In this document: one piece after another, positions 20,116-61,400 of the stretch
How the letters are laid out: each line of letters opens with the position of its first letter
Numbering within the stretch: the stretch's first letter is position 1
DNA from: Clavelina lepadiformis
Taxonomy: Eukaryota; Chordata; Ascidiacea; Aplousobranchia; Clavelinidae
DNA length: 64,000 nucleotides
NCBI RefSeq assembly: GCF_947623445.1
Contig: NC_135240.1
Coordinates: 7,812,001 to 7,876,000, forward strand
Direction: 5' to 3'
The notes under the pieces: model-generated
What the model was told of the DNA's origin: nothing
Database searches by the model: none
What the model saw: the letters and a program-made list of their open reading frames with translations, nothing else
Made by a program: the position numbers and the translations under genes

Positions 20116-21274
20116 TCACTTACAAAAGCAACCCAATGGGTTTCTGCCAGACCATTCTCCGTTGGGAAGGCATGTCCGACTTCTTTTGCCGACAAGAAAG
20201 TATCTAGAACGACAATGGAAGAAAATACGATCATTAACATCAAAGTAAGTTTGACCATTTGGTGTGATGTATCCGTTCTGGGGTGCGTCCGGTAATCGGC
20301 ATTTGCCGCTTTTAACTGCAGACAAAATACATAGCTTGAGTTTTTAGTATCAGATTACATTCGTTTATACAAATATCGAAATAACAAATTAGTTTTAATA
20401 AAAGTAATAAAATATTTAAACTTGTATTTACATGCATCAAAAAAGTAAGTGTGGAAAACCATACAAAAGCAACATTTTTATATAAGTGAGCGGAAAAGTT
20501 TGGTTCATGTTGGGTCGCTAGCTATTTCCGTTGCTAAATCACTCACGTTTGCAAGTTGGGAAATCGTCAGACCATTGCCCGTTGTCCAAACATTCCAAGT
20601 CTTTCACTCCATCAAGTTCAAACTCTCTGTTGCATTTGAACCAGATCTTTTTTCCGATATCGAAAATTGACTGGTCAATTGGTATAATGAATCCATCCCT
20701 AGGCTCTTTGGGTTTTTCACAGCGTACGCCTTTTGCTGAGTAAAGGTAATGATGTAAACTGAATGAATGATTTTCGCCTTAGAAACTTTCAGAATTTATA
20801 ACTTATTTAGTTCATTTTTCAACCCATAGAACGACAGACTTACGAACACATTTCGGTAGAGCAGGAGACCATGTGTCGTCACGCAAGCATGTCAGATGTT
20901 TGGCTCCGACCAAGTCGTATTTTGCACCACAGGAAATCCATATCTTTTCATTCATGAAAAAAAAGCTTCTTTCTTTTGGTGTAATCCTCCCGTTCGCCGG
21001 TGGTGTTGGTTTGAAACAGTCTTCAAAAATATTTACAGAAATTTAAAATCGAGTGCTTGATGTTTCATGAAGCAAGATAAGATATTCACTCAAAACACAG
21101 ATTCATTGAATTTATTAAGTTATGAAGCTTCGCCATGAATTTTTCTCAAAACGACCAGAAATGTTACTAAAAATGTTATAACTTTTTACCTCCATAGAAG
21201 TAATCATCAATAAAACCAAAAGCTTGATGACTGAAGCATACCGTTAAGAAAACTAAGATTTTGAACGAGTTCAT
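20116..21274 (-). CDS. CCP-2: short secreted protein with 3 CCP (a, b/d hybrid, e)
   Basis: Exons: 21274-21190, 21020-20844, 20735-20547, 20315-20116; 216 aa. The signal exon reads MNSFKILVFLTVCFSHQAFG. CCP a runs from DCFKPTPPANG to WSPALPKC. The middle CCP begins like module b (CEKPKEPRDGFI) and ends like module d (LECLDNGQWSDDFPTC). The last CCP (CRLPDAPQNG...RTCLPNG) ends GCFCK then a stop made within TGTAAGTGA. Introns are phase 1. Candidate AATAAA at 19981-19976. No transmembrane segment, so a secreted product is expected. Its close paralogue is CCP-3 at 23517-24680, in a roughly 3.4-kb tandem unit. Confidence 0.87.
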
Positions 21275-23516: not shown

Positions 23517-24680
23517 TCACTTACAGAAGCAACCCAATGGGTTTCTGTGAGACCATTTTCCGTTGGGAAGGCATGTCCGACTTCTCTTGCCGACAAGAAA
23601 GTATCTAGAACGACAATGGAACGAAATACGATCATTAACATCAAAGTAAGTTTGACCATTTGGTGTGATGTATCCGTTCTGGGGTGCGTCCGGTAATCGG
23701 CATTTGCCGCTTTTAACTGCAGACAAAATACATAGCTTGAGTTTTTAGCATCAGATTACATTCGTTTATACAAATATCGAAATAACAAATTAGCTTTAAT
23801 AAAAGTAATAAAATATTTAAATTTATATTTACATGCATCAAAAAAGTAAATTTGGAAAACCATACAAAAGCAACATGTGCATATATGTGAGCGGAAAAGT
23901 TTGGTTCATGTTGGGTCGCTAACTATTTCCGTTGCTAAATCACTCACGTTTGCAAGTTGGGAAATCGTCAGACCATTTCCCGTTGTCCAAACATTCCAAG
24001 TCTTTCACTCCATCAAGTTCAAACTCTCTGTTGCATTTGAACCAGATCTTTTTTCCGATATCGAAAAATGACTGGTCATTTGGTATAATGAATCCATCCC
24101 TAGGCTCTTTGGGTTTTTCACAGCGTACGCCTTTTGCTGGATAATAGAAATGATGTAAACAGAACGAATGATTTTCGCCTTGGAAACTTTCAGAATTTAT
24201 AACTACTTTAGTTCATTTCTCAACCCATAGAACGACAGACTTACGAACGCATTTAGGTAGAGCAGGAGACCATGTGTCGTCACGCAAGCATGTCAGATGT
24301 TTGGCTCCGACCAAGTCGTATTTTGTACCACAGGAGATCCATATCTTTTCATATTTGAAAAAAACGCTTCTGTCCTTTGGTGTAATCTTCCCATTCGCCG
24401 GTGGTGTTGGTTTGAAACAATCTTCAAAAGTATTTGTAGAAATTTAAACACGAATGCTTATATACTTTATTTTTCATGAAGCAAGATAAGATATTCACTC
24501 AAAACACAGATTCATTGAAATTATTAAGTTATGAAGCTTCGACGTAAACTTTTCACAAAACGACCAGAAATGTTACTACTAATGTTATAGTTCATTACCT
24601 CCATGAAAGTAGTCATCAAAACCAAAAGCTTGATGACTGAAGCATACTGCTAAAAAAGCTAAGATTTTGAACGAATTCAT
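23517..24680 (-). CDS. CCP-3: short secreted protein with 3 CCP (a, b/d hybrid, e)
   Basis: Exons: 24680-24599, 24421-24245, 24136-23948, 23716-23517; 215 aa. It is a near copy of CCP-2 with the same exon sizes apart from a one-codon shorter signal exon (MNSFKILAFLAVCFSHQAFG). The b/d hybrid exon and the terminal GCFCK plus stop are the same. The e domain differs at a few residues (GKWSHRNP rather than GEWSGRNP). Candidate AATAAA at 23385-23380. No disabling change seen. Confidence 0.87.
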
Positions 24681-28373: not shown

Positions 28374-30415
28374 TCACTTACAGAAGCAACGAGGGTTTCT
28401 GCCGGACCATTGTCCGTTGGGAAGGCATGTCCGACTTTCCTTGCCGACAAGAAAGTATCCAACTTCACAACCGAACCAAATCTCATCATGAACATCGAAA
28501 AAGGTTTGACCGGCTGGGCTGATGTGGCCCTTTCTTGGGGCGTCCGGTACTTGGCATTTCACGGCTTCAGCTACAGAAAATAACAAAACTTAACTTATTG
28601 GCATCCAATTGCATTCGTTTTGCAAATAATAAAATGGTAAGTTAACTTTACAAAATTTTTGAACATTGTGTTTTTTCTTCTTTGATATAGAAAAGGTATG
28701 AGCTACAGGCAAATACAACTCATCATATAGGCAAACTTTTTCACGATAATTGTTGTAACTTTTGTCGGTGAATCATTCACGATTGCAAGTTGGGAAATCA
28801 TCAGACCATTGCCCGTTCTCTAAACTTTCCAAGTCTTTCACTCCATCAAGTTCGAATCCGCGATTACATTTGAACCAGATCTTGTCCCCAACATCAAAGC
28901 GATCTTTATCGTCGGAGAAAATGAATCCGTATTTGGGATCAAGAGGTTTTTTGCACTGAACAACTTTGCCTGGATATGAATGCAAGGTTGATACAAAGTA
29001 ACGGGTGTTTTGATGAAGTCGATATAATCATTACAAAGTCGTTGTACAATTTTATTGTTTAAAAGTAAAAGTATTATATCTGTTTGTTGGAACTTACGTT
29101 CGCATCTTGGGATCTTATCAGACCATTTTCCATTGCTGCGACATTGCAAGTCCTTTTTGCCTTTCAGTTCGAATCCTCGCTCACAACTGAACCAGATTTT
29201 TTCATCAACATCAAAGAAATCTTGGTCGTCTGGTCGGATTGATCCGTTGTCCGGGTCATCAGGTTTCTCACATTTCACAACTTTACCTGCGCACCAAAGA
29301 GTACTATGATCTTTTTGATTAAACTTTCATAAGTTTTTATTTTTCAATTCCAAATTATTAAATTCGTTTGTTTTTTTTTCATGTTGTTTTTTAATTGTGT
29401 TGAAGATTATAGTATAATAATTAAAGAAAATGTATTCCGAAAACTTTTATATAAAAGTTTAGTTTATTTCATCAACTTTGATGCTGAATAACTTAACCAA
29501 ATCTTTTTCATATATAAGCTAATAATATATTGTCACAACAAGTGATAATTATAGGTTATATATTTGATTATATATGTAAGCGATTATAACAAAATATAAT
29601 AATACTGTCACAAATATATGTATTGCAGAAACTGTGTTGACAAGATTAACACCAAATGATAACGTTACAGGATCATTCTTTTTTAAAAATTCTATATAAT
29701 CAGAAATAACATTCTTACGGTCACATCGGGGACAGGGAGCGGACCATCTTCCATTGCGAAGACATTTCAAATCTTTTACGCCGTTGAGGTCCACGTTGAG
29801 ATCCACGATCGCATTTGAACCAAATCTTTCCTCCGACATCGAAAAGTGTTTCGTCTTTCGGAACAATGAATCCATCTCTGGGCTCTTTGGGTTTTTCACA
29901 TTGCACAACTTTTGCTAATTAAGACAAGCGAATTAATATAACCGAATAAATTTTTTATACTTTAGTTCAGTTTTCAACCCTTGGAATTAGAGACTTACGA
30001 ACACATTGAGGCAATGCTGGCCACCATTTGTTGCGACCCAAACATTTCAAATCTTTTGCTCCGACCAGATCGTAATTTGTGCCACAGGAAATCCAAATCT
30101 TTTGATTCTTTTGAAAGACGTTTTTGTGCTCTGGAGCAATTTTTCCGTTCGCCGGAGGTTTGGGTTTAAAACATCTCAAAAATAAACCTGCTTAAATTTG
30201 AAATGAAATGGTTACATGACGTTTTATGAGGCTCCATTAAAAATTCCATTTAAACACAGATTTGTCAAAATTACTTTTCGATAATAGCCTACAACATTTT
30301 AACAAAATGATCAGAAGTATCTTAGCATTTTACCTCGACCGAAGACATCAAAGGTCCCAAGAGCTTGATGGCTGAAACATACCGCCAAGAAAACAACGAT
30401 TTTAAACGAATTCAT
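28374..30415 (-). CDS. CCP-4: 5-CCP gene (a-b-c-d-e), probably damaged
   Basis: Exons: 30415-30334 (signal, MNSFKIVVFLAVCF), 30187-29999 (a), 29914-29719 (b), 29286-29098 (c), 28969-28781 (d), 28570-28374 (e). Exon b is 196 nt instead of 189: a 7-nt gain near 29790-29815 shifts the frame and removes its last two Cys. Exon d has Ser for the third Cys (DLESLENG), and its donor is GTGAAT, not GTGAGT. The other modules are intact; e ends RCFCK plus stop. Because exons are phase 1-1, skipping b would restore a 281-residue protein. It has only one c module, whose upstream intron resembles that of the first c and whose downstream intron that of the last c in the sister genes. Either a decaying pseudogene or a gene using exon skipping. 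Confidence 0.7.
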
Positions 30416-31959: not shown

Positions 31960-31967
31960 GTTCTCAT

Positions 31968-32164
31968 GACGGCTTTGAACGATTTCTTGAGTTCTGTTTA
32001 ATTATGCCGGCTAATTGCTATAGCTTACGTGGCCAGTTACATATTTATAAGAATTGCACTCGCAACTGGGTCATTAGGGCTTTAATTGCAGATCTGAAAC
32101 ACATTACACGTCAGCGTATGCACTCACGGAAAAAAATGCTAAAAATACTTCTGTCTAAACCGTT
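31968..32164. repeat. Host segment between two hAT elements: upstream flank of the CCP-4 unit
   Basis: Colinear with 37823-38020 upstream of CCP-5 ('gacggctttgaacgatttct' to 'ctgtctaaaccgtt'). This shows that the two elements are separate insertions. Confidence 0.85.
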
Positions 32165-35201: not shown

Positions 35202-37653
35202 TCACTTACAGAAGCAACGAGGGTTTCTGCCGGACCATTGTCCGTTGGGAAGGCATGTCCGACTTTCCTTGCCGACAAGAAAGTATCCAACTTCACAACC
35301 GAACCAAATCTCATCATGAACATCGAAAAAGGTTTGACCGGCTGGGCTGATGTGGCCCTTTCTTGGGGCGTCCGGTACTTGGCATTTCACGGCTTCAGCT
35401 ACAGAAAATAACAAAACTTAACTTATTGGCATCCATTTGCATTCGTTTTTGCAAATAATAAAATGGTAAGTTAACTTTACAAAATTTTTGAACATTGTGT
35501 TTTTTCTTCTTTGATATAGAAAAGGTATGAGCTACAGGCAAATACAACTCATCATATTGGCAAACTTTTTCACGATAATTGTTGTAACTTTTGTCGGTGA
35601 ATCACTCACGATTGCAAGTTGGGAAATCGTCAGACCATTGCCCGTTGCCCAAACATTCCAAGTCTTTCACTCCATTAAGTTCGAATCCGCGATTACATTT
35701 GAACCAGATCTTGTCCCCAACATCAAAGCGATCTTTATCGTCGGAAATAATGAATCCGTATTTGGGATCAAGAGGTTTTTTGCACTGAACAACTTTGCCT
35801 GGATATAAATGCAAGGTTGATACAAAGTAACGGGTGTTTTGATGAAGTCGATAAAATCATCACAAATTCGTTGTACAATTTTATTGTTTAAAAGTAAAAG
35901 TATTTTTTCTGTTTGTTGGAACTTACGTTCGCATCTTGGGATCTTATCAGACCATTTTCCATTGCTGCGACATTGCAAGTCCTTTTTGCCTTTCAGTTCG
36001 AATCCTCGCTCACAACTGAACCAGATTTTTTATCAACATCAAAGAAATCTTGGTCGTCTGGTCGGATTGATCCGTTGTCAGGCTCATCTGGTTTCTCACA
36101 TTTCACGACTTTACCTGAGTGAGCATGATTCGTTTGTGAAAAAGTTTAACATGCAATTTTGGCCTTTCGTATTATTTATTTCACGAAGAAAAGTGTTAAA
36201 AGAAAAACACATTTTCTTATTGAGGTTGTAGTTCCCTTATCAAGTTAATTTGCTTGGAATACAGTTCGAACTTCGAATCGATTTTTGATGGTTTCTAAAC
36301 TCTTTTAGTCAGATGATAAATGAATCAAAACTTACGTTCGCATCTTGGGATCTTATCAGACCATTTTCCATTGCTGCGACATTGCAAGTCTTTTTTGCCT
36401 TTCAGTTCGAATCCTCGCTCACAACTGAACCAGATTTTTTCGTCAACATCAAAGAAATCTTGGTCGTCTGGTCGGATTGATCCGTTGTCAGGCTCATCTG
36501 GTTTCTCACATTTTACGATTTTGCCTGCGCACCAAAGATTACTATGATCTTTTTGATCGAAGTTACATAAGTTCATTATTTTTAATTGCAAAATTATGAA
36601 ATTCGTTTGTATTGTTTCAGGTTATTTTTTTAATTGTGTTGAAGATTATAGTACAGTAATTAAAGAAAATGTATTCCAAAAACTTTTATATATAAATTTA
36701 GTTTATTTAATCAACTTTATGGTGCTGAATAACTTAACCGTATCTTTTTCATATATAAGCTAATAATATATTCTCACGACAAGTGATAATTATAGGTTAT
36801 ATATTTGATTATATATATAAGCAATTATAACAATATATATTAATACTGTCACAAGTATATGTATTGTAGAAACTGTGTTGACAAGATTAACGCCAAATGA
36901 TAACGCTTCAGGATCATACTATTTTAAAACTTCTATATAATTAGAAAGAACATTCTTACGGTCACATCGGGGAAAGGGAGCGGACCATCTTCCATTGCTA
37001 AGACATTTCAAATCTTTTACGCCGTTGAGTTCAAATCCACGATCGCATTTGAACCAAATCTTTTCTCCGACATCGAAAAGTGTTTCGTCTTTCGGAACAA
37101 TGAATCCATCTCTGGGCTCTTTGGGTTTTTCACATTGCACAACTTTTGCTAATTAACACAAGCGAATTAATATAACCGAATAATTTGTTTATACTTTAGT
37201 TCAGTTTTCAACCCTTGGAATTAGAGACTTACGAACACATTGAGGCAATGCTGGCCACCATTTGTTGCGACCCAAACATTTCAAATCTTTTGCTCCAACC
37301 AGATCGTAATTTGTGCCACAGGAAATCCAAATCTTTTCATTTTTGTAAAAGACGTTTTTGTGCTCTGGAGTAATTTTTCCGTTTGCTGGAGGTTTGGGTT
37401 TAAAACATCTCGAAAAGAAACCTGCTGAAATTTGAAATGAAATGGTTACTTGATGTTTTATGAGGCTCCATTCCATGAAAATTCCATTTGAACACAGATT
37501 TGTCAAAATTACTTTTCGATAATAGCCTACAACATTTTAACAAAATAATCAGATGAATCTTAGCATTTTACCTCGACCGAAGACATCAAAAGTCCCAAGA
37601 GCTTGATGGCTGAAACACACCGCCAAGAAAACAACGATTTTAAACGAATTCAT
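35202..37653 (-). CDS. CCP-5: 6-CCP gene (a-b-c-c-d-e) with one frameshifted c module
   Basis: Exons: 37653-37572 (signal), 37421-37233 (a), 37148-36960 (b), 36524-36336 (c), 36114-35927 (c), 35798-35610 (d), 35398-35202 (e). All but the second c exon have the standard 189/197 nt. That exon has 188 nt: one base is missing in a T-run near 36024-36031, shifting the frame after FFDVD. If the exon is skipped the reading frame is restored with five CCP. The rest is intact: FKPKPPANGK in a, CEKPKEPRDGF in b, CEKPDEPDNGS in c, CKKPLDPKYG in d, and the invariant e ending RCFCK plus stop. A sequencing error in the homopolymer cannot be excluded. Confidence 0.75.
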
Positions 37654-40232: not shown

Positions 40233-43154
40233 TCACTTACAGAAGCAACGAGGGTTTCTGCCAGACCATTGTCCGTTGGGAAGGCATGTCCGACTTTCCT
40301 TGCCGACAAGAAAGTATCCAACTTCACAACCGAACCAAATCTCATCATGAACATCGAAAAAGGTTTGACCGGCTGGGCTGATGTGGCCCTTTCTTGGGGC
40401 GTCCGGTACTTGGCATTTCACGGCTTCAGCTACAGAAAAAAAACTTTACTTATTGGTATCCAATTGCATTCGTTTTTGCAAATAATAAAATGGTAAGTTA
40501 ACTTTACAAAATTTTTGAACATTGTGTTTTTTCTTCTTTGATATAGAAAAGGTATAAGCGACAGGCAAATATAACTCATCAAATGGGCAAACTTTTTCAC
40601 GATAATTGCTGTAGCTTTTGTCGGTGAATCACTCACGATTGCAAGTTGGGAAATCATCAGACCATTGCCCGTTGCCCAAACATTCCAAGTCTTTCACTCC
40701 ATCAAGTTCGAATCCTCGATTACATTTGAACCAGATCTTGTCCCCAACATCAAAGCGATCTTTATCGTCGGAGATTATGAATCCGTCTTTGGGATCAAGA
40801 GGTTTTTTGCACTGAACAACTTTGCCTGGATATGAATGCAAGGTTGATACAAAGTAATGTGTGTTTTCATGACGTCGATATAATCACTACAAAGTTGTTG
40901 TACAATTTTATTGTTTAAAAGTAAAAGTATTTCTTCTTTTTGTTGGAACTTACGTTCGCATCTTGGGATCTTATCAGACCATTTTCCATTGCTGCGACAT
41001 CGCAAGTCTTTTTTGCCTTTCAGTTCGAATCCTCGCTCGCAACTGAACCAGATTTTTTCATTAACATCAAAGAAATCTTTATCGTCTGGTCGGATTGATC
41101 CGTTGTCTGGCTCATCTGGTTTCTCACATTTCACGACTTTGCCTGAGTGAGCATAGTTCGTTTATGAAAAAGTTTAACATGCAATTTTGGCCTTTCGTAT
41201 TATTTATTTCACGAAGAGAAGTATTAAAAGAAAAACACATTTTCTTATTGAGGTTGTAGTTCCCTTATCAAGTTGATTTGCTTGGAATACAGTTCGAACT
41301 TAGAATCGATTTTTGATGGTTTCTAAACTCTTTTAGTCAGATGATAAATAAATCAAAACTTACGTTCGCATCTTGGGATCTTATCAGACCATTTTCCATT
41401 GCTGCGACATCGCAAGTCCTTTTTGCCTTTCAGTTCGAATCCTCGGTCACAACTGAACCAGATTTTTTCATTAACATCAAAGAAATCTTGGTCGTCTGGT
41501 CGGATTGATCCTTTGTCAGGCTCATCTGGTTTCTCACATTTTACGACTTTTCCTGCATGAGAATGATTCGTTCATGAAAAAATGAGAAGTTTAATTTTTG
41601 TTCGTTGTACGTCATGGTCGTTCAACGAACAGGATTAATTTGGTAGTTGTGATTTAAACTACATGAAAATACTCGTTTGAAATAATTTCATACCGTGTGT
41701 TTTTTAGTAAATTCGTTACAACTAAAAACAAGTTTGTTTCTAAAGTTAATCGATGAACGTGGAATGTGTCCAGACGCGAATAAAAACTTTATTTTTAAGA
41801 TTTGCTTCGTCCTGACAAAAAAAAAATCGGAAAAACTTACGTTCGCATCTTGGGATCTTATCAGACCATTTTCCATTGCTGCGACATTGCAAGTCCTTTT
41901 TGCCTTTCAGTTCGAATCCTCGCTCGCAACTGAACCAGATTTTTTCATTAATATCAAAGAAATCTTGGTCGTCTGGTCGGATTGATCCGTTGTCGGGCTC
42001 ATCTGGTTTCTCACATTTTACGATTTTGCCTGCGCACCAAAGAGTACTATGATCTTTTTGATCGAAGTTACATAAGTTCATTAGTTTTAATTGCGAAAAT
42101 ATGAAATACGTTTGTTTTGTTTCAGGTTATATTTTTAATTGTGTTGGAGATTATAGTACAATGATTAAAGAAAACGTATTCAAAAAACTTTTATATATAA
42201 ATTTAGTTTATTTCATCAACTTTATGGTGCTGAATAGCTTAACCAAATCTTTTTCATTTATAAGCTAATAATATATTGTCACAACAAGTGATAATTATAG
42301 GTTATATATTTGATTATATATGTAAGCGATTATAACAATATATATTAATACTGTCACAAATATATGTATTGCAGAAACTGTGTTGACAAGATTAACGCCA
42401 AATGATAACGCTACAGGATCATACTTTTTTAAAACTTCTATATAATTAGAAAGAACATTCTTACGGTCACATCGTGGAAAGGGAGCGGACCATCTTCCAT
42501 TGCTAAGACATTTCAAATCTTTTACGCCGTTGAGGTCAAATCCACGATCGCATTTGAACCAAATCTTTTCTCCGACATCGAAAAGTGTTTCGTCTTTTGG
42601 AACAATGAATCCATCTCTGGGCTCTTTGGGTTTTTCACATTGCACAACTTTTGCTAATTAAGACAAACGAATTAATATAACCGAATAATTTTGTTATACT
42701 TTAGTTCAGTTTTCAACCCTTGGAATTAGAGACTTACGAACACATTGAGGCAGGGCTGGCCACCATTTGTTGCGACCCAAACATTTCAAATCTTTTGCTC
42801 CAACCAGATCGTAATTTGCGCCACAGGAAATCCAAATCTTTTCATTTTTGTAAAAGACGTTTTTGTGCTCTGGAGTAATTTTTCCGTTCGCTGGAGGTTT
42901 GGGTTTAAAACATCTCGAAAAGAAACCTGCTTAAATTTGAAATAAAATGGTTACTTGATGTTTTATGAGGCTCGATTAAAAATTTCATTTAAACACAGAT
43001 TTATCAAAATTACTTTTCGATATTAGCCTACAACAATTTAACAAAATGATCAGATGTATCTTAGCATTTTACCTCGACCGAAGACATCAAAGGTCCCAAG
43101 AGCTTGATGGCTGAAACACACCGCCAAGAAAACAACGATTTTAAACGAATTCAT
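40233..43154 (-). CDS. CCP-6: secreted 7-CCP protein (a-b-c-c-c-d-e), intact
   Basis: Exons: 43154-43073 (signal), 42926-42738 (a), 42653-42465 (b), 42029-41841, 41552-41364, 41142-40954 (three c), 40825-40637 (d), 40429-40233 (e); 470 aa. Every CCP exon before the last is exactly 189 nt and phase 1-1. The c modules carry the WFSCERGFELKGKKDL core; the first and third have an NGS N-glycosylation sequon (DNGSIRP), which the second lacks (DKGSIRP). The e module ends RCFCK, its stop lying inside the donor-like TGTAAGTGA. No transmembrane or GPI signal. Together with CCP-7 it is the best reference for the undamaged array gene. Probably a secreted recognition or complement-control type protein (inference). 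Confidence 0.9.
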
Positions 43155-46781: not shown

Positions 46782-49708
46782 TCACTTACAGAAGCAACGA
46801 GGGTTTCTGCCAGACCATTGTCCGTTGGGAAGGCATGTCCGACTTTCCTTGCCGACAAGAAAGTATCCAACTTCACAACCGAACCAAATCTCATCATGAA
46901 CATCGAAAAAGGTTTGACCGGCTGGGCTGATGTGGCCCTTTCTTGGGGCGTCCGGTACTTGGCATTTCACGGCTTCAGCTACAGAAAAAAAACTTTACTT
47001 ATTGGTATCCAATTGCATTCGTTTTTGCAAATAATAAAATGGTAAGTTAACTTTACAAAATTTTTGAACATTGTGTTTTTTCTTCTTTGATAGAGAAAAG
47101 GTATAAGCTACAGGCAAATACAACTCATCATATAGGAGAACTTTTTCACGATAATTGCTGTAGCTTTTGTCGGTGAATCACTCACGATTGCAAGTTGGGA
47201 AATCGTCAGACCATTGCCCGTTGCCCAAACATTCCAAGTCTTTCACTCCATCAAGTTCGAATCCTCGATTACATTTGAACCAGATCTTGTCCCCAACATC
47301 AAAGCGATCTTTATCGTCGGAGATTATGAATCCGTCTTTGGGATCAAGAGGTTTTTTGCACTGAACAACTTTGCCTGGATATGAATGCAAGGTTGATACA
47401 AAGTAATGTGTGTTTTCATGACGTCGATATAATCACTACAAAGTTGTTGTACAATTTTATTGTTTAAAAGTAAAAGTATTTTTTCTGTTTGTTGAAACTT
47501 ACGTTCGCATCTTGGGATCCTATCAGACCATTTTCCATTGCTGCGACATCGCAAGTCCTTTTTGCCTTTCAGTTCGAATCCTCGCTCGCAACTGAACCAG
47601 ATTTTTTCATTAACATCAAAGAAATCTTGGTCGTCTGGTCGGATTGATCCGTTGTCTGGCTCATCTGGTTTCTCACATTTCACGGTTTTACCTGAGTGAG
47701 AATGATTCGCTTATGAAAAACTTTAACATGCAATTTTGGCCTTTGGTAATATTTATTTCATGAAGAGAAGTGTTAAAAGAAAAACACATTATTTATTGAG
47801 GTTGTAATTCCCTTATCAAGTTCATTTTCTTGGAATATAGTTAGACCTTCGAACCGATTTTTGATGGTTTCTAAACCCTTTCAGTCAGATGATAATTAAG
47901 TCAAAACTTACGTTCGCATCTTGGGATTTTATCAGACCATTTTCCATTGCTGCGACATTGCAAGTCCTTTTTGCCTTTCAGTTCGAATCCTCGCTCGCAA
48001 CTGAACCAGATTTTTTCATTAATATCAAAGAAATCTTGGTCGTCTGGTCGGATTGATCCGTTGTCAGGCTCACTTGGTTTCTCACATTTCACGGCTTTAC
48101 CTGAGTGAGAATGATTCGTTTATGAAAATGTGAGAAGTTTAGTTTTTGTTCGTTGTACGTTATGGTCGTTCAACGAACAGAATTAATTTTGTAGTTGTGG
48201 TTTAAACTACATGAAAATACTCGTTTGAAATAATTTCATACCGTGTGTTTTTTAGTAAATTCGTTACAACTAAAAACAAGTTTGTTTCTAACGTTAATCG
48301 ATGTACGTGGAATGTGTCCAGACGCGGATAAAAACTTTAATTTTGAATTTGCTTCATCCTGACAAAAAAAAATTGGAAAAACTTACGTTCGCATCTTGGG
48401 ATCTTATCAGACCATTTTCCATTGCTGCGACATTGCAAGTCCTTTTTGCCTTTCAGTTCGAATCCTCGGTCACAACTGAACCAGATTTTATCTTCAACAT
48501 CAAAGAAATCTTGGTCGTCTGGTCGGATTGATCCGTTGTCAGGCTCATCTGGTTTCTCACATTTCACGATTTTGCCTGCGCACAAAAGAGTACTATGATC
48601 TTTTTGATTGAAGTTACATAAGTTTTTATTTTTCAATTCCAAATTATGAAATTCGTTTGTTTCGTTTCATGTTGTTTTTTAATTGTGTTGGAGATTATAG
48701 TATAATAATTAAAGAAAATGTATTCCAAAAACTTTTATATAAAAGTTGAGTTCATTTCATCAACTTTATGGTGCTGAATAACTTTAACAAATCTTTTTCA
48801 CATATAAGCTAATAACATATTGTCACAACAAGTCATAATTAAATTATAGGTTATATATTTGACTATATATGTAAGCGATTATAACAATATATACTGACAC
48901 TGTCAAAAGTATAGGCTATGTATTGCAGAAACTGTTTTGACAAGATTAACGCCAAATGATTACGCTACAGGATCATTCGTTTTTAAAACTTCTATATAAT
49001 TAGAAAGAACATTCTTACGGTCACATCGTGGAAAGGGGGCAGACCATCTTCCATTGCGAAGACATTTCAAATCTTTTACGCCGTTAAGGTCAAATCCACG
49101 ATCGCATTTGAACCAAATCTTTTCTCCGACATCGAACAATGTTTCGTCTTTTGGAACAATGAATCCATCTCTGGGCTCTTTGGGTTTTTCACATTGCACA
49201 ACTTTTGCTAATTAAGACAAACGAATTAATATGAATGAATAATTTTGGTATACTTTAGTTCAGTTTTCAACCCTTGGAATTAGAGACTTACGAACACATT
49301 GAGGCAGGGCTGGCCACCATTTGTTGCGACCCAAACATTTCAAATCTTTTGCTCCAACCAGATCGTAATTTGTGCCACAGGAAATCCAAATCTTTTGATT
49401 CTTTTGAAAGACGTTTTTGTCCTCTGGAGTAATTTTTCCGTTCGCTGGAGGTTTGGGTTTAAAACATCTCGAAAAGAAACCTGCTGAGATTTGAAATAAA
49501 ATGGTTACTTGATGTTTTATGAGGCTCGATTAATAATTCCATTTAAACACAGATTTATCAAAATTACTTTTCGATATTAGCCTGCAACATTTTAACAAAA
49601 TGATCAGAAGTATGTTAGCATTTTACCTCGACCGAAGACATCAAAGGTTCCAAGAGCTTGATGACTGAAACATACCGCCAAGAAAACAATGATTTTAAAC
49701 GAATTCAT
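46782..49708 (-). CDS. CCP-7: secreted 7-CCP protein (a-b-c-c-c-d-e), intact
   Basis: Exons: 49708-49627 (signal, MNSFKIIVFLAVCF), 49480-49292 (a), 49207-49019 (b), 48575-48387, 48100-47912, 47691-47503 (three c), 47374-47186 (d), 46978-46782 (e); 470 aa. Same layout and almost the same intron lengths as CCP-6 (c-to-c spacing 475 and 409, c-to-d intron 128 bp). All frames and cysteines are kept. The e and d domains match those of CCP-6 at the protein level, including introns, pointing to very recent duplication or gene conversion. Differences cluster in a (EDKNVFQKNQK) and in c1 (VEDKIWFSCDRG). CCP-4, 5, 6 and 8 are its other paralogues. Confidence 0.9.
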
Positions 49709-49779: not shown

Positions 49780-52589
49780 CCCTAACCTTGTTTCAAATCG
49801 TGATCCAATTTAAAACAGCCGATTGAAAAATATCGAAATTACAAGAACTCCTATCGTTATATTTTTCATCGCAGCTTTAAACGGTCCCTTGAACTCAGTT
49901 TAATTATTCCCGTTAATTATTGCTGCGTGTTCACCCATGTTTAAGAATACCACCTACTGCTGCGTCGTTGGGGCTTTTAATTGCTGGGTTGTAAAACATT
50001 ACACGTCATCAGCGTATGTTCAAAGAAAACCGCTTACATTGTTCGTTTCGACAGAGTTATTTAAAGTTGCATTAATTGGTTTCTAGCTTGATCCTTAAAG
50101 AAAATTAAAATTACCGCTTGCCAAAAACATTTAGCCTAAAAATAGTTACTTCATGTCCAGTCGTGTGCCAACAAAATATACACGTTTGTATTTTATGCAG
50201 TTATGTAGGCGTTCGTTCGAACGAGCTGCTACCTTGTGTTTTCTACGGCAAGATATACAATACTATACTATGCTGTGATATTTTCTAAAAAAGCCGAGGT
50301 TTTTACATTTACCGGATTAGATCTTGTAATATCTCGTTTGTTAATACAGAAATACTTTCCCACTGACTTGTAGTAAGTATAGATAAACCATTAACAAAAT
50401 ACCTCTTTTGATTAAGGTATACACTTGCATATGGAATTATACACGATTTTATTTCGTTGACTTATTGTCAAGGGTAAACCATTTCACAATGATAAACAAA
50501 TAAACATAAAGTGTAGATATATGTTCTGTATTTTCTTTGTTTTCTTTTTCAAATAAATAACATTTTGCTTTAGATGGTTAGAGTAAAATATTTTAATTCT
50601 TTAAAAAGCTGAAGTGTTATTTTTGTTTTAGTGCTAATCAGCGCGGGGCCCAACGCAGTCGCATCGTTCGCATTGACTAGCTAAGGCCTGTCCTTGGCCA
50701 ATACTTTTGCAGACCAATGTCCATCCTGAAAGCTGAAACTCTGTAATTGAAAATCAGAATGTGCCACACAAATGCTATATATGATCATCACTGATTGATT
50801 GTTGATTTTGAATGACAGCTTTGTACAAACGAAATAGTGATACACCACTTATGAAAACTATCGTGCTAGTTTAAATCATCGCTTTAGAAAAACAATCTTG
50901 CCAAACAGAATTTTTAAAATATGACTTGTCGCACTTCATCACAATCTTTTAAAAATGAAATCTTTTTCAAATCATCACATTTGAAAATAATTACTTAACT
51001 TGCACAATACCATTTTTCAAATAAGGTATATTAATGTATCGTATTTTTATGAAATGATTTTAAACAGAGCAATCTTTTTAAAAAAATGATATTACAAATA
51101 AAGAATATAGTCTTTAATTATTTTTATAAATTTCATTTTGTTAATAGTGACTTCTGAAAAACGACATGTTGCAAACCTTCCCTTTTTGACAAGCCCTATA
51201 ATTCAAATCCTAAATTTTAGAATATGCACCTTTCTGAATATAGGACAAATTGCTTGTATATTGATAGGAACTATATAGTGACACTTCGTGGATTATGACA
51301 TCTGTTGCAAAGTCTCTTTTGCAAACCACTGGTTTTACATAGAAATGACTTTGTTTATAGTAGCTTTATGTATACGATCACTTTTATTACAGTTACCTTT
51401 CATTTCTGACCCTTGTGCTGAAACATTTATTATGTAACATTTTATGAACAACAAATTTTTGAACATGTTAACTTATTGTAACTTGCAACTTTATAATGTA
51501 GATTGTTACAAGTCGAAGTTTTTTATGATTACATTCAGCAAACTAAATCTTATTAAATCCATATACACGGAGTCCATGGCTTACGCAAAATGACAAAAAG
51601 GCATACTTTGCTTCATCAACATAGTTATCCCAGTAATTGAGCTGTAAATCAACTGCAGCCTACAAACTTTGTCATAACTTGCTTATTTTACATCAAACCA
51701 AGCTACAATATTTAAAAAGTGTTGATAAAAAGAACAGTTAGTAACTACAAAAGCTTTGCCAAGTGACTCTTGTGAATTGTTTCAGACGAGTGATTGATTT
51801 TGTGGAAACAGCATTCCATAAGAAAAAACTTCGTCATGCATGTAGTAACTAAATTTTTATTGGACGAAGCAAACATTGAAAATCAAATTGCAATGAGATT
51901 ATCGTATATAAAAAACGGAGAAAAAATCTCACTGGAATTTAAAGAAAATCTTATTTATTCCAAATGCACGCGTTGGCGTTATAGCTGGAGCCTGTGATGG
52001 GTAACTCATTACTGCACGTATAATAGGGAATTAAAATTCTTTGTCTTGTTAATTAATGTTATTTTGCTTTATAAATACTTCATTTGTGGTTGTAATACTT
52101 TTAGGGTTAATTTGCTTCTTTGGGCTTAAGAAGGTCATATCTGTAGCGTCTTTTATAACAAAAATAAAAATCAAATTAATCAATCCTATATAATTCTATT
52201 TTATTTCGCATCAGTAAATGATTGCAAGTTTTCAGAATAATGTGTTTTTTATTACATACCACTTTTTGTTTTATATTAAGCGCATTGCAATATAAATAAT
52301 TGCTACAGATAACAATTAATAAGTGACTTCATAATGTTATAACAAGATTGAAATCAAATCAATTTTAAGGAAAAAGTCCATCGTTGTCGTCATAGAAATT
52401 GATATTATCATAGATTCATCGAATCCTTGGTTTAGTAGTGGCGATTTTTAACTAAAAACAAGAACGTTATAAGGTCAGCTGTCAATTAAGTGGATTCCAA
52501 AATGTTTTTATAAAAATCTTAATAAAGTAAACTTCAATAAAGAAATGTAAGACAAAATTCAGGCATATTTTGTTTCCAAATCAAACTTG
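49780..52589. repeat. Duplicated intergenic flank between CCP-7 and CCP-8
   Basis: 49780-50215 matches 43225-43665; it then jumps to a match with 44985 onward, so about 1.3 kb of the CCP-6-type flank is missing. 50500-52589 matches 38140-40232. AATAAA for CCP-8 at 52253-52248. No gene recognised. Confidence 0.78.
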
Positions 52590-55500
52590 TCACTTACAGA
52601 AGCAACGTGGGTTTCTTCCAGACCATTGTCCGTTGGGAAGGCATGTCCGACTTTCCTTGCCGACGAGAAAGTATCCAACTTGACAACCGAACCAAATCTC
52701 ATCACGAACATCGAAAAAAGTTTGACCGGCTGGGCTGATGTGGCCCTTTCTTGGGGCGTCCGGTACTTTGCATTTTACGGCTTCAGCTGCTACAGAAAAA
52801 AAAACTTAACTTATTGGCATCCAATTGCGTTCGTTTTTGCAAATAATAAAATGGTAAGTTAACTTTACAAATTTTTTGAACATTGTGTTTTCTCTTCTTA
52901 GATTTAGAATAGTTATAAGCAACAGGCAAATGAAAACTCATCGGGTAGGCAAACGTTTTCACGATATTTGCTGTAACTTTTGTCGGTGAATCACTCACGA
53001 TGCCAAGTTGAGAAATCATCAGACCATTGCACGTTGTCCAAATTTAACATTCCAAGTCTTTCACTCCATCAAGTTCAAATTCGTTGTAAAATTTTATTGT
53101 TTAAAAGTAAAAGTATTTTAACTGTTTTTTGGAACTTACGTTCGCATCTTGGGATCCTATCAGACCATTTTCCATTGCTGCGACATCGCAAGTCCTTTTT
53201 GCCTTTCAGTTCGAATCCTCGCTCACAACTGAACCAGATTTTTTCATCAACATCAAATAAATCTTGGTCGTCTGGTCGGATTGATCCGTTGTCTGGCTCG
53301 TCTGGTCTCTCACATTTTATGGCTTTACCTGAGTGAGAATAATTTGTTTATGAAAACGTTTAACATGCAAATTTGGCTTTTCGTATTATTTATTTCGCGA
53401 AGAGAAGTGTTAAAAGAAAAACACATTTTCTTATTGTGATTGTAGTTCCCTTATCAACTTTTTTGCTTCGAATACAGTTCGACCTCCGAATTGATTTTTG
53501 ATGGTTTCTAAACCTTTTTAGTCAGATGATAATTAAATCAAAACTTACGTTCGCATCTTGGGATCTTATCAGACCATTTTCCATTGCTGCGACATTGCAA
53601 GTCCTTTTTGCCTTTCAGTTCGAATCCTCGCTCGCAACCGAACCAGATTTTTTCATTAACATCAAAGAAATCTTTGTCGTCTGGTCTGATTGATCCGTTA
53701 TCTGGCTCGTCTGGTCTCTCACATTTCACGACTTTGCCTGCATGGGAATGATTCGTTTATGAAAAAATGAGAAGTTTAATTTTTCTTTGTTGTACGTCAT
53801 GGTCGTTCAACGAACAGCATTAATTTGATAGTTGTGGTTTAAACAATCAAAATATTCGTTTGAAAGTTTTTATATCATGTTTTTTTTGGAAATTCTTTTC
53901 AAAAAAAGCTTGTTTCTTAAGTTAATCGATGTACGCGGAATGGGGCCAGAAGCTGATAAAATCTTTAATTTTGAATTTGCTTCATCCTAACAAATAAACG
54001 TTGGAAAAACTTACGTTCGCATCTTGGGATCTTATCAGACCATTTTCCATTGCTGCGACATTGCAAGTCCTTTTTGCCTTTCAGTTCGAATCCTCGCTCG
54101 CAACCGAACCAGATTTTTTCATTAACATCAAAGAAATCTTTGTCGTCTGGTCTGATTGATCCGTTATCTGGCTCGTCTGGTCTCTCACATTTCACGACTT
54201 TGCCTGCATGGGAATGATTCGTTTATGAAAAAATGAGAAGTTTAATTTTTGTTTGTTGTACGTCATGGTCGTTCAACGAACAGCATTAATTTGATAGTTG
54301 TGGTTTAAACAATCAAAATATTCGTTTGAAAGTTTTTATATCATGTTTTTTTTGGAAATTCTTTTCAAAAAAAGCTTGTTTCTTAAGTTAATCGATGTAC
54401 GCGGAATGGGGCCAGAAGCTGATAAAATCTTTAATTTTGAATTTGCTTCATCCTAACAAATAAACGTTGGAAAAACTTACGTTCGCATCTTGGGATCTTA
54501 TCAGACCATTTTCCATTGCTGCGACATTGCAAGTCCTTTTTGCCTTTCAGTTCGAATCCTCGCTCGCAACTGAACCAGATTTTTTCATTAACATCAAAGA
54601 AATCTTTGTCGTCTGGTCGGATTGATCCGTTATCTGGCTCGTCTGGTCTCTCACATTTCACGACTTTACCTGCATGGGAATGATTCGTTTATGAAAAAAT
54701 GAAAAGTTTAATTTTTGTTTGTTGCACGTTATGGTCGTTCAACAAACAGGATTAATTTGGTAGTTGTGGTTTAAACAATCAAAATACTCGTTTGAAAATA
54801 TTTCATATCATGTTTTTTTAGTAAATTCTTCACAAAACAAGATTGTTTCTAAAGTTAATCGATGTACGCCGAATTGGTCCACAAGCGGAAAAAAATTTTA
54901 TGTTTCAAAATTGCTTCATCCTAACAAATAAACGTTGGAAAAACTTACGTTCGCATCTTGGGATCTTATCAGACCATTTTCCATTGCTGCGACATTGCAA
55001 GTCCTTTTTGCCTTTCAGTTCGAATCCTCGCTCGCAACCGAACCAGATTTTTTCATTAACATCAAAGAAATCTTGGTCGTCTGGTCGGATTGATCCGTTG
55101 TCAGGTTCATCTGGTCTCTCACATTTCACGACTTTGCCTGCATGGGAATGTTTCGTTTATGAAAAAATGCGCACAAAAGAGTACCATGATCTTTTTGATC
55201 GAAGTTACAAAAGTTTTTATTTTTCAATTCAAAATTATGAAATTCGTTTGTTTTGTTTCATGTTGTTTTTTAATTGTGTTGGACATTATAACACAGTAAT
55301 TAAAGAAAATGTGTTCCGAAAACTTTTATATAAGTTATAAATTTAGTTTTTTTTTATCAACTTTATGGTACTGAATAACTTAACAAAATAGTTTTCATTC
55401 ATAAGCTAATAATATATATATATATATATTTGAGTATATATATAAGTGATTATAACAATATATATTAATACTATCAAAAGTATTTGTATTGCATAAACTG

Positions 55501-56273
55501 TTTTGATAAGATGAACGCCAAATGATAACGCTTCAGGATCATTCTTTTTAAAATTTCTATATAATTAGAAAGAACATTCTTACGGTCACATCGGGGAAAG
55601 GGGGCAGACCATCTTCGATTACTAAGACATTTCAAATCTTTTACGCCGTTAAGGTCAAATCCACGATCGCATTTGAACCAAATCTTTTCTCCGACATCGA
55701 AAAGTGTTTCGTCTTTTGGAACAATGAATCCATCTCTGGGCTCTTTGGGTTTTTCACATTGCACAACTTTTGCTAATTAAGACAAACGAATTAATATGAC
55801 CGAACAATTTTGTTATACTTTAGTTCAGTTTTCAACCCTTGGAATTAGACACTTACGAACACATTTAGGCAGGGCTGGCCGCCATTTGTTGCGACCCAAA
55901 CATTTCAAATCTTTTGCTCCAACCAGATCGTAATTTGTGCCACAGGAAATCCAAATCTTTTGATTTTTGGAAAAGACGTTTCTGTGCTCTGGAGTAATTT
56001 TTCCGTTCGCTGGAGGTTTGGGTTTAAAACATCTCGAAAAGAAACCTGCTGAAATTTGAAATAAAATGGTTACTTGAAGTTTTATGAGGCTCGATTAAAA
56101 ATTCCATTTAAACACAGATTTTTCAAAATTACTTTTCGAAATTAGTCTACAACATTTTAACAAAATGATAAGAAGTATCTTAGCATTTTACCTCGACCGA
56201 AGACATCAAAGGTTCCAAGAGCTTGATGGCTGAAACATACCGCCAAGAAAACAACGATTTTAAACGAATTCAT
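52590..56273 (-). CDS. CCP-8: secreted 8-CCP protein (a-b-c x5-e) with lost d module
   Basis: Exons: 56273-56192 (signal), 56045-55857 (a), 55772-55584 (b), 55137-54949, 54669-54481, 54203-54015, 53737-53549, 53328-53140 (five c), 52786-52590 (e); 533 aa. All c exons are 189 nt, phase 1-1, frame intact, with CERPDEPDNGS replacing the CEKP of the sister genes. The exon-plus-intron units starting at 53549 and 54015 are near-identical. Module d survives only as its 3' half (52999-53083): about 190 bp including its acceptor are gone, so c joins directly to e in frame. The e exon has a tandem acceptor TAGCAG, giving an optional extra residue. The product should be secreted. This is the gene with the largest c expansion in the array. 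Confidence 0.87.
52999..53083 (-). pseudogene. Remnant of the d-module exon in CCP-8
   Basis: The 3' half of d is recognisable (from FELDGVKD to the SDDFST-like end and the C|GTGAGTG donor). It carries a 5-nt gain and joins intron sequence where the first half of the exon should be. No acceptor, so it is not expected to be spliced in. Confidence 0.8.
53549..54480 (-). repeat. Two near-identical 466-bp exon+intron units (c modules of CCP-8)
   Basis: 53549-54014 and 54015-54480 each hold one c exon and its upstream intron. By eye they differ at only a few positions. Older related units start at 54481 (468 bp) and in CCP-6/CCP-7 (475-477 bp). Confidence 0.9.
55412..55429. repeat. (TA)n microsatellite
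   Basis: Nine TA dinucleotides in the CCP-8 intron between b and the first c; absent in the sister introns. Confidence 0.85.
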
Positions 56274-58457: not shown

Positions 58458-61400
58458 CTAACATGCTAACATTAACTTACATTGGGCGACATAATCGCCG
58501 CAACAGTTTCCACGATTAATACAGCGACCGTCGCATTGGCAGGGCCAACTCGTTGTGAATTGCGAACACTTGCCCCTACAGGAATATACACTGACACACT
58601 TGACAACTGGCGATGACCATTCTCCATTTTCCAGGCAGGAAATATCTTTTTCCCCTTCCACAGAGTAACCAGCCTCGCAAGCGTACCACACTGGCTTTCC
58701 CACCGGGTAAGTTGTCAAGACTGGGCCGAAGTAACCATTAACCGGTCGAATTGGAGGACGGCATCCAACTGTTTTTAAAAGGTTATGAAAGCATTATGAG
58801 CATGAGCTCGGTCAGATGGAGTGATAGGACTGAGTATATTAATTGTAAGTGTTACTTATATAGCGTAATACAAAATAGGAAGGATACTGCACCGGAACAA
58901 TATACAACTTGAAATTAAAATATTACGTTAAATGCAATTTTAAAGAGTTACAATTTTAAGAATGTTCCATGCTGTACGATTGTTATATCTGTCAAGTCAT
59001 CCTGACAAGTAGGTCCATAAGAATAAAAAGTGTGCAGTTTCAATAATTAGCAGGTGCGCTTCAAATGGTATATTGGTACGTGTATTGCCACACTTTTAAA
59101 AGTGCGGCGTGTTTACTTCTAGTTGAGAAACATTCACGTTTTTGTAATTATAACCATGTAATTTCAGCGTCATCAACATAAGCACTTACGTTGACATGTG
59201 GGAAAAACGTGAGACCATTCGCCGTTCTCTTTACAGTAAATTGTTGCTCGTCCTTTGACGTAATATCCTTGATCACAGCTGAACCTGAGACGAAGACCGG
59301 GAACGTAATAACTTTGCGATGGACTGAAAACACCATTTTTGATATATCTTGGCCTTGAGCATTGGCGACCTAAAATGGAGAAGTACTCTCAAATAATCTT
59401 TTTTTATTTACGGTATTACACTTGGCTTTGATATATGTCAAGTAATATGTCGAAATACATACGGTCGATTAGCTGCTTTTATTAACCGTAGACCAATACA
59501 AAGTCGTTAATTTTTGGATTATAGCTTTTCAGAGCAAGAATGCTTACGGAAACAGGTCGGTTCGCTGTTAGACCAAAAGCCTCCTTCCTGGCAAACAATG
59601 TCCTTGACTCCCTTAAGAACGTAGGAGAATTCGCATCCAAACCAAACTGATGTTCCTTGCGGGTATGACGGTAAGTTTGGCCCAAATGTGCCGTGCTTAG
59701 GTCGAACAAGGGGCCGACAGTCTGGTGCTAAATGCAAAATATTAACACAATCGATTTTTGTTTTAAATTAATGTTTTCGCAGGATAAAAATAGGTATGAA
59801 AATCGCTTAAAATGTCTCCTTCAAAAGCATACTTCTTCAAACTAGTCGTACCTTCGCAGATGGGTTCCTCGTTCGACCAGGTTCCATCACTCAAACAAAT
59901 GATTGTTTTCGCTCCTTTAAGCCGGTAATTTATCCGACAGCTAAAATGAACCTCTTCGCCGACCTCATACGTAGATTTTGAGAGAAAGATTGATCCCCGT
60001 GTTGGCTGTTTGGGCTTGGAGCACTGAGCTAAAACATAACTTCAAAGGTTACATTTAGGTAGAACGTTACTCAGCTTTTAAGCAAATGTTAAATAACATG
60101 AGGAAAAGGAGGTTGACGTCTAAACGCGAAAAGTAAGGTGGAGTAAAATCACTACCTTTGCAAGTGGGAAAATAACCAGACCAATAACCATTTTGTAAGC
60201 AAGCAAAATCTTTGTCTCCCTCGATAACATAAGGATGGTCACATTGAAACCAGATTGTCGCTCCCGGCTTGTAAATAGTTTGATCTGGACCGAAACTGCC
60301 GTGGTCTGGACTGTCTGGGCGAAGACATCTAGGTGCTAATTAAAAACAATTGCTTAATAATTAAGTGCAAGTGAAGCTACAATAATATGAAGAATCATAG
60401 AGGCTGGTGATATAATCCCAAAGGCAATATAAACAAACTCTTTCGCTCTGAGATTGATAACTCTTACTATGGTACGTAGCTACAACAATAATTACATAAT
60501 CTAAGTGGTAGTTATTGCCCGATTTCAATTGCCAAAATCCTGGCGTCTATATAATTCTATTATCTAATTAACATATAGGTTAATACCAATAATGGCACCT
60601 TATCTTTATTAAATTTATTGTGCAATGGTATGCAGAAAAGATAAACAAAAAAGACAAAAAGAAGTCAGCCTAAATAAAAACAAAAATGTTCCTCACGTCC
60701 ACAAGTAGGGAAGGGATACGACCATTTACCGTTGGGGAAGCAAACTAATTCCCGTTCACCACGTAACTGATAAGGTTGTGGACAGAAATAGTGTATTCTG
60801 GTTCCCATTGTGTAGAGATCTAAACCCGGTTGGAAATCCCCGAAAGCAGGGGTTGGAGGAGTGACACACGAATCACCTTGATGTACATTTTTCACTTAGT
60901 AAGTTTTTGTATGGTACGCTGTAAGTGCATTTTTAAAATGCGCTCAGACTCTTTCCTATAGAGATAGTAAAAAAACTTGTATAATGCTCAAACTTACCAA
61001 CGGTACCATCGCAGCTTGGCTCTTTGCCTGACCACTGGCCACTTTCCATACACGTTAGGGTATGTGATTCACTAGGACTGTTGTCATTTGTGCAGAAGAA
61101 AGTTACTTTGGCTCCTATTTCGTAATTTGCCTGCTCTGGAGTGAAACCACCATGTTTGGGTTTCGTCGGTCGAGGACACCTCACTGCAATTAGCAAGCAA
61201 GACAAATTAAATAGGGAATTAGGTTTATAGAGATTGACGACGGTATGGACAATTTTTAACGATTGTTGATCGTCCATATGTGTTCGCGCATTAAGATTTA
61301 CTTCAAAAGTTCGCTTTATGACATAAAAGGGGTTGCTTTGATATACTTTGAGCTGTTGACTTACAAACGCAATTAGGCGGCGTTTCGGTCCACTCTCCTC

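Follow-up and report, generated by a model that had tools for sequence, protein, structure and literature searches.

Exon-level change in sushi-module number within a tandem gene family of the ascidian Clavelina lepadiformis, probably by exchange inside the repeated exon

The gene CCP-8 of Clavelina lepadiformis contains five copies of one module exon, designated c, two of which lie in neighbouring units that are almost identical in exon and intron alike. CCP-8 belongs to a tandem family of genes for sushi/CCP-module proteins, probably secreted and of immune type, located within the 64,000 nucleotides analysed here (the window; contig NC_135240.1). Each module is encoded by a single 189-bp exon with phase 1-1 borders, so that a misaligned exchange alters the number of modules while the reading frame is kept. 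We consider it likely that the number of c exons changed by unequal exchange inside the exon, accompanied by losses and homogenisation, and we propose that the c modules act as glycosylated spacers.

CCP-8 and its near-identical c units

CCP modules were found with an iterated HMM across the window and their types were assigned by hand from the sequences; the refined exon models are those of CCP-6, CCP-7 and CCP-8 (Table 1). CCP-8 occupies about 52.43-56.27 kb of the minus strand and encodes, in order, a signal peptide, modules a and b, five c modules, module e and a six-residue tail. The spliced model is a single open frame with a predicted product of 537 aa. All eight module exons measure 189 bp, have phase 1-1 borders and join in an open frame, and each of the five c exons has an AG acceptor and a GTAAGT donor. 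For exons a and e an alternative acceptor is possible 3 bases further upstream. No membrane segment is apparent by eye in the model, and the product is probably secreted.

Table 1. Features of the CCP gene family in the window (positions counted from the first base of the window).
Feature	Position	Strand	Description and basis
CCP-8 exon 1, coding part	56192..56273	-	Start codon and predicted signal peptide (MNSFKIVVFLAVCFSHQALG...), by eye
CCP-8 exon a (sushi/CCP)	55857..56045	-	HMM, splice sites; Pfam Sushi 32.0 bits
CCP-8 exon b (sushi/CCP)	55584..55772	-	HMM, gene model
CCP-8 b-to-c1 intron	55138..55583	-	Final 30 bases L-type, 2-base overlap (CA), by eye
CCP-8 c exon 1, then L intron	54949..55137	-	HMM, intron typing, splice sites
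CCP-8 c exon 2, then L intron	54481..54669	-	HMM, intron typing, splice sites
CCP-8 c exon 3, then L intron	54015..54203	-	Putative hybrid; unit and exon comparison
CCP-8 c exon 4, then M intron	53549..53737	-	Equal to c3 (189/189); exon and intron comparison
CCP-8 c exon 5, then T-type intron shortened by d deletion	53140..53328	-	Exon and intron comparison
CCP-8 module d remnant	52999..53080	-	Approximate, 3' part only; self-BLAST, alignment; ends by eye
CCP-8 exon e (sushi/CCP)	52598..52786	-	HMM, gene model; Pfam Sushi 42.1 bits
CCP-8 last exon, coding part	52432..52451	-	FKNRHY and stop, first codon completed from exon e; spliced model
Near-identical tract	53540..54570	+	Bases 53540-54104 match those 466 further on; putative footprint of the last duplication
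CCP-7	46790..49708	-	Signal exon, a, b, c x3, d, e; tail near 46.64 kb; open frame
CCP-6	40241..43154	-	Signal exon, a, b, c x3, d, e; tail near 40.09 kb; open frame
CCP-5	35210..37653	-	Signal exon, a, b, c x2, d, e; tail exon not located; HMM, exon model
CCP-4	28382..30415	-	Signal exon, a, b, c x1, d, e; HMM, exon model
CCP-3 middle module	23948..24136	-	Mosaic, 5' half b-like, 3' half d-like; site test
CCP-2 middle module	20547..20735	-	Mosaic, 5' half b-like, 3' half d-like; site test

The units at 53540-54005 and 54006-54471 differ at one base in 466 (0.21%, Poisson 95% interval 0.005-1.2%). This single mismatch, C/G at position 53785, is intronic, and the exons at 53549 (c4) and 54015 (c3) are identical over all 189 bases. 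When units are cut instead as an exon with its downstream intron, c2 and c3 with their L-type introns differ at 4 of 466 bases (three exonic, one intronic), and c1 and c2 with theirs show 35 mismatches in 466 plus 2 gap columns. Tandem Repeats Finder reports the 466-bp period over 53540-55169 (3.5 copies, score 2969), and three different scans detect it, which rules out a chance origin. In a genome protein search with c, the best matches were in the window and the best outside it reached 38% identity (150 of 527 candidates scored).

An earlier note on this DNA had described five c exons in CCP-8, near-identity over 466 bp including intron, and a very recent last duplication of a kind that phase 1-1 introns would allow. 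The exon count and the near-identity are confirmed, 53140-55137 being the exact first and last bases of the array. The recent date is supported by the single difference between the units, with the interval given above, and copy-number change at the level of the module by the symmetric 189-bp exons.

Near-identical tandem units are a classic site of assembly error, and the pattern could in principle reflect a false extra c copy or a collapsed array. However, the available part of the report on the published assembly kaClaLepa1.1, a slightly different version, describes PacBio HiFi data at 117-fold with QV 67.4, from DNA sheared to 12-20 kb and with the second haplotype deposited separately as GCA_947623165.1 (PMC10884593). 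With HiFi DNA of this length, the whole 2-kb array should fit inside a single read. The two units are also distinguished by one base, and a genome DNA search with the CCP-8 unit (209.06 Mb, 95 contigs) returned at least 16 matches, all inside the window. Judged from the published read type, collapse or false expansion of the CCP-8 array is unlikely, and with the other evidence we regard an artefact as extremely improbable.

The extent of the near-identity suggests how the newest copy arose. With a shift of 466 bases, a single mismatch is found across 565 bases, from 53540 to 54104. On its left the tract ends nine bases into the donor, at the point of divergence between M- and L-type introns; on its right it extends 90 bases into exon c3 on the plus strand, which corresponds to the 3' half of the exon as transcribed. 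Within c3, the first 99 bases are c4-like and the last 90 are identical among c2, c3 and c4; c3 differs from c2 at bases 2, 51 and 99 only. The tract therefore consists of one period plus a conserved exon end, as expected for the exchange of one unit.

We propose that c2 paired with the present c4 and that the exchange was resolved in the 3' half of exon c or in the adjoining donor. To judge from this footprint, such an exchange would yield the hybrid c3 together with an extra 466-bp unit, and the result of a template switch would look the same. More generally, unequal exchange, whether by chromatid crossover or by replication template switch, would tend to be resolved inside the exon because the exon is the best-shared stretch between units with differing introns.

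Alternatively, the five c units may have existed beforehand and one of them may recently have overwritten its neighbour by gene conversion, in which case the near-identity would be uninformative about a recent gain. Homogenisation in CCP-8 is real, as conversion would predict: at exon base 22, each of the five CCP-8 c exons carries a Lys-to-Arg change, and the nine c exons of the other genes, the damaged CCP-5 copy among them, all encode Lys. This distribution indicates that the change spread among copies within the gene. It reaches even c5, which is otherwise like the last c of CCP-7 (77% support with 7c3) and is the counterpart of the last c in CCP-6 and CCP-7. In the tree of c exons, which is weak except for the grouping of c2, c3 and c4 of CCP-8 (93, 97), the five CCP-8 copies are not united. 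Against conversion, a 565-base tract made up of a period and a conserved exon end would demand donor and acceptor stretches so long that they overlap. Moreover, CCP-8 has three L introns and CCP-6 and CCP-7 one each, so units must have been gained at some time in any case. Conversion is thus an unlikely origin of the near-identical units, and we favour unequal exchange inside the exon.

Intron types and the history of c number

The window contains 14 c exons across five neighbouring genes, and the counts given in the earlier note (1, 2, 3, 3 and 5 in CCP-4 to CCP-8) hold, with the qualification that the second c of CCP-5 (35927-36114, minus strand) carries a 1-bp deletion and appears as two HMM pieces. 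The introns between these exons fall into types that record their history. The order is B-c-L-c-M-c-T in both CCP-6 and CCP-7, B-c-M-c-T in CCP-5, where L is missing, and B-c-T in CCP-4, where both L and M are missing. In CCP-8 the c exons are followed by L, L, L, M and finally a T that is cut short. Because L, M and T introns are common to CCP-6, CCP-7 and CCP-8 and partly missing in CCP-4 and CCP-5, the ancestral array most likely had three c exons, from which CCP-4 and CCP-5 would have lost copies and to which CCP-8 would have added. The same exchange acting in reverse may have removed the copies in CCP-4 and CCP-5.

The L introns of CCP-8 share 84.8-86.7% of their bases with the L introns of CCP-6 and CCP-7 and 89.5-99.6% among themselves. 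They are closer to one another than to their counterparts in the other genes, which argues that L units multiplied within CCP-8. The pair that follows c2 and c3 shows 1 difference in 277 bases, and the L intron after c1 is about 10% different from both. This intron comparison calls for a minimum of two gains that differ in age, or of three if the scar treated below records that an original c was lost together with its L intron.

The counts happen to rise with position along the array, which could suggest stepwise growth from a single ancestral c in CCP-4 to five in CCP-8 at the end of the series. This explanation conflicts with the L, M and T introns that CCP-6, CCP-7 and CCP-8 have in common. 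In the 5' and joined trees, CCP-4 and CCP-5 are placed inside the family and are not basal (pairing 99%, other nodes 49-90%), CCP-8 is basal in a weakly supported 3' tree, and CCP-4 and CCP-5 carry frame lesions. We rejected a growth series from 1 to 5 on the intron types, and any such reading of the earlier note's counts is contradicted by them, since losses as well as gains took place. Stepwise growth is therefore very unlikely, and we retain an ancestral array of three as the most likely starting point.

Besides the damaged c of CCP-5, the lesions include exon b of CCP-4, which is 7 bp longer and frameshifted; in module d of CCP-4, Ser replaces one Cys. The broken CCP-4 b (29719-29908, minus strand) and CCP-5 c are both bordered on each side by phase-1 introns, and skipping them would keep the frame. 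Between these two genes, 30593-33816 is occupied by a minisatellite-like sequence with a 15-base unit (CGACAGTTGATCGAA and its complement) in both orientations and with longer periods of about 31 and 46.

The flanks of the array add a further layer to this history. CCP-8 is 95-95.5% identical to CCP-6 and CCP-7 in the 5' block and 91.5-92.3% in the 3' block. Trees built from the 5' flank and from the 3' flank place CCP-8 differently, with several nodes at 36-60% support, suggesting that exchange between genes probably occurred too. Given this conflict and the low support, the order of events rests on parsimony and the history of the family is reticulate.

The gains in CCP-8 appear to have been accompanied by deletions at short overlaps, affecting module d and the original first c, and by homogenisation within the gene. 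Of the d module carried by CCP-4 to CCP-7, CCP-8 has only a remnant. Its T intron leads straight into the 3' portion of exon d, whose acceptor and 5' portion have been lost. About five bases are shared at the joint (ATTTG-like, overlap by eye), and the remnant as aligned has a 5-base insertion inside it. Upstream of the array, the end of an L intron within the b-c1 intron is read as the scar of a lost original first c. The upstream flank of c1 fits no single intron type (0.62, 0.65, 0.58), and this poor fit is likewise read as a scar.

Exchange inside an exon may also have acted outside the c array. The middle modules of CCP-2 and CCP-3 are mosaics in which 50 of 53 and 50 of 54 informative sites, respectively, fit one switch from b to d at bases 86-92 (permutation p 5e-5, the lowest value attainable with 20,000 shuffles). 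Compared with CCP-7 by thirds, the CCP-2 exon matches b at 51, 47 and 40 and d at 36, 44 and 61 of 63 bases. In self-BLAST against the larger genes, the sequence upstream of the mosaic resembles the a-b side and that downstream the d-e side, at about 68-70%. The 100-base flanks are weak evidence. The downstream flank scores 0.65-0.66 for d vs 0.26-0.39 for b, which is just above the random range (200 random pairs: mean 0.39, 95% point 0.61, maximum 0.65), and the upstream flank scores 0.58-0.60 for both. The simplest reading is that the middle exon is a b-d fusion formed by exchange inside the exon, probably the reverse exchange, with a direction that we infer from the sequences.

In the last third of the mosaic (CCP-2 20547-20609, CCP-3 23948-24010, minus strand), 59-61 of 63 bases match d, and the flanks of the genes are 67-70% alike; this high likeness may reflect either later conversion or strong constraint. 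Elsewhere in the window, a gene at 11-15 kb has two near-identical CCP modules (13006-13176 and 13773-13943, minus strand) that are a candidate module duplication. Genes flanking the array on both sides carry Somatomedin B modules near CCP modules (11393-11851 and 58479-58598, minus strand; 30.6 and 33.9 bits, cut-off 23.1). Rfam gave no match in the window at gathering scores. On contig 8, at 18.63-18.81 Mb, many of the CCP matches listed form pairs about 79.4-79.5 kb apart with equal scores, a pattern of either a recent segmental duplication or an uncollapsed haplotype.

Constraint and a putative spacer role for the c modules

The modules of CCP-8 score well above the cut-off of 20.7 bits for Pfam PF00084 (Sushi), with 42.9 bits for c, 42.1 for e and 32.0 for a. 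Four Cys and one Trp are invariant across the 46 aligned modules in the window, and the predicted structure of c is a confident beta model (mean pLDDT 92.6). The best 60 of 90 PDB neighbours found for CCP-8 by sequence comprise CR1, CR2 and factor H along with other CCP proteins, a likeness that is no guide to function.

A dN/dS comparison between c modules, which the earlier note had raised as a check, gave a pooled pN/pS of 0.31 over 78 non-independent pairs among the 13 full-length c exons (the damaged CCP-5 exon left out). This value fits constraint on the c exons. Diversifying selection on c was considered and, with the pooled value at 0.31, shows no sign. The highest value in any group, 0.83, comes from the three pairs of CCP-7 and rests on a mean of only 2.0 synonymous and 7.3 non-synonymous differences.

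The c modules stand out by their potential for glycosylation. An N-glycosylation sequon, NGS, occurs in 11 of 12 c rows vs 1 of 34 rows of other modules in alignment A1, which includes neither the damaged CCP-5 c nor the c4 exon of CCP-8, whose sequence equals that of c3. CCP-8 has five sequons, all in c, CCP-7 has three and CCP-6 two. Each c thus adds 63 residues and nearly always one sequon. The expectation that copy number alters the length of the predicted protein is borne out: the CCP-8 product has 537 aa, also without module d, vs 474 aa for each of the CCP-6 and CCP-7 products. Most likely, to go by its sequence, the product of CCP-8 is a secreted, rod-like CCP protein, located in body fluid or tunic, with the c modules serving as a spacer. 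The number of c modules would then set the reach of the rod and its glycan count, while the end modules a, b and e stay single. That these modules are glycosylated spacers is our proposal, and a guess from sequence.

The recombination mechanism is compatible with neutral turnover, in which the repeat number drifts and the number of c modules has no role in the protein; it is the spacer and glycan role with which neutral turnover competes. Two of the five genes have frame lesions and copy number has moved both ways, as drift would predict. The pooled pN/pS of 0.31 and the open frames of CCP-6, CCP-7 and CCP-8 suggest, however, that the modules are kept, although they are silent on how many. We regard neutral turnover as a close contender, with slightly less than an even chance of being right.

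Variation between animals and comparison with known systems

If c number varies within the population through exchange inside the exon, CCP-8 could act as an allelic ruler, with allele-specific length of the secreted CCP rod and number of glycans, possibly in immunity or self-recognition. We hold this to be doubtful. Nucleotide diversity in Ciona is about 1.1% according to the available part of PMC3424144. At that level, two random alleles would show about 5.1 differences in 466 bases and one difference or fewer would have a probability of 0.036; at 0.2% diversity this probability is 0.76. At 0.2%, set against the figure of about 1.1% for Ciona, the extra unit of CCP-8 is young enough that it may not yet be fixed. 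Should Clavelina match Ciona in diversity, this unit would be younger than most pairs of alleles and could well be segregating.

A heterozygosity figure for Clavelina lepadiformis was not found in the open-licence literature, and the sole mention of Clavelina returned by a term search of PMC12373286 is as a species in an orthology comparison. Nor was a prior description of this CCP family found in that literature, where the matches look unrelated by title or the start of the abstract.

The earlier note had compared the array with apolipoprotein(a). In apolipoprotein(a), kringle IV type 2 is encoded by phase-compatible repeated exons whose copy number, up to tens, sets the length of the protein, and the polymorphism is proven in people. 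The analogy is fair as far as it goes. However, apolipoprotein(a) repeats kringle modules and CCP-8 repeats CCP modules, and by analogy human CR1 is the closer case and the closest known.

Like CCP-8, CR1 is built of tandem CCP modules, and its size varies via insertion and deletion of long homologous repeats of such modules, the first 28 modules of this membrane receptor forming four long repeats (PMC5736761, available part). CR1 is also the top PDB row for a 280-aa stretch of CCP-8, with a score that sums ten matched stretches and does not denote orthology. The two differ in that the unit of CCP-8 is one exon and its product is probably secreted, whereas CR1 is a membrane receptor with multi-module repeats. 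Factor H, CR2 and other multi-CCP proteins belong to the same module family by their sequence matches in the PDB, the likeness of CCP-8 to complement regulators being one of sequence similarity only.

Among ascidians, the CCP protein vCRL1 of Ciona is reported to be highly variable between individuals; its first proposed role was in self-recognition, and a link to the blood system followed (PMC8849226, PMC5465252, available parts). Compared by description, vCRL1 is a receptor, whereas the model of CCP-8 has no membrane part by eye and ends in a six-residue tail.

Taken together, the CCP-8 array offers a clear tunicate example of change in CCP number by exchange inside an exon, as the sequences suggest, with gain, loss and homogenisation. 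Its value lies in a clean record of the mechanism and in how readily any variation between animals could be tested; its novelty is modest. With copy-number-polymorphic arrays of the CR1 and apolipoprotein(a) kind it shares near-identical tandem units inside one gene, here differing at 1 base in 466. Gain and loss of CCP blocks also underlies the size variants of human CR1 (PMC5736761, available part), and by this comparison CCP-8 resembles CR1 in its anatomy, except that the repeated unit is one exon.
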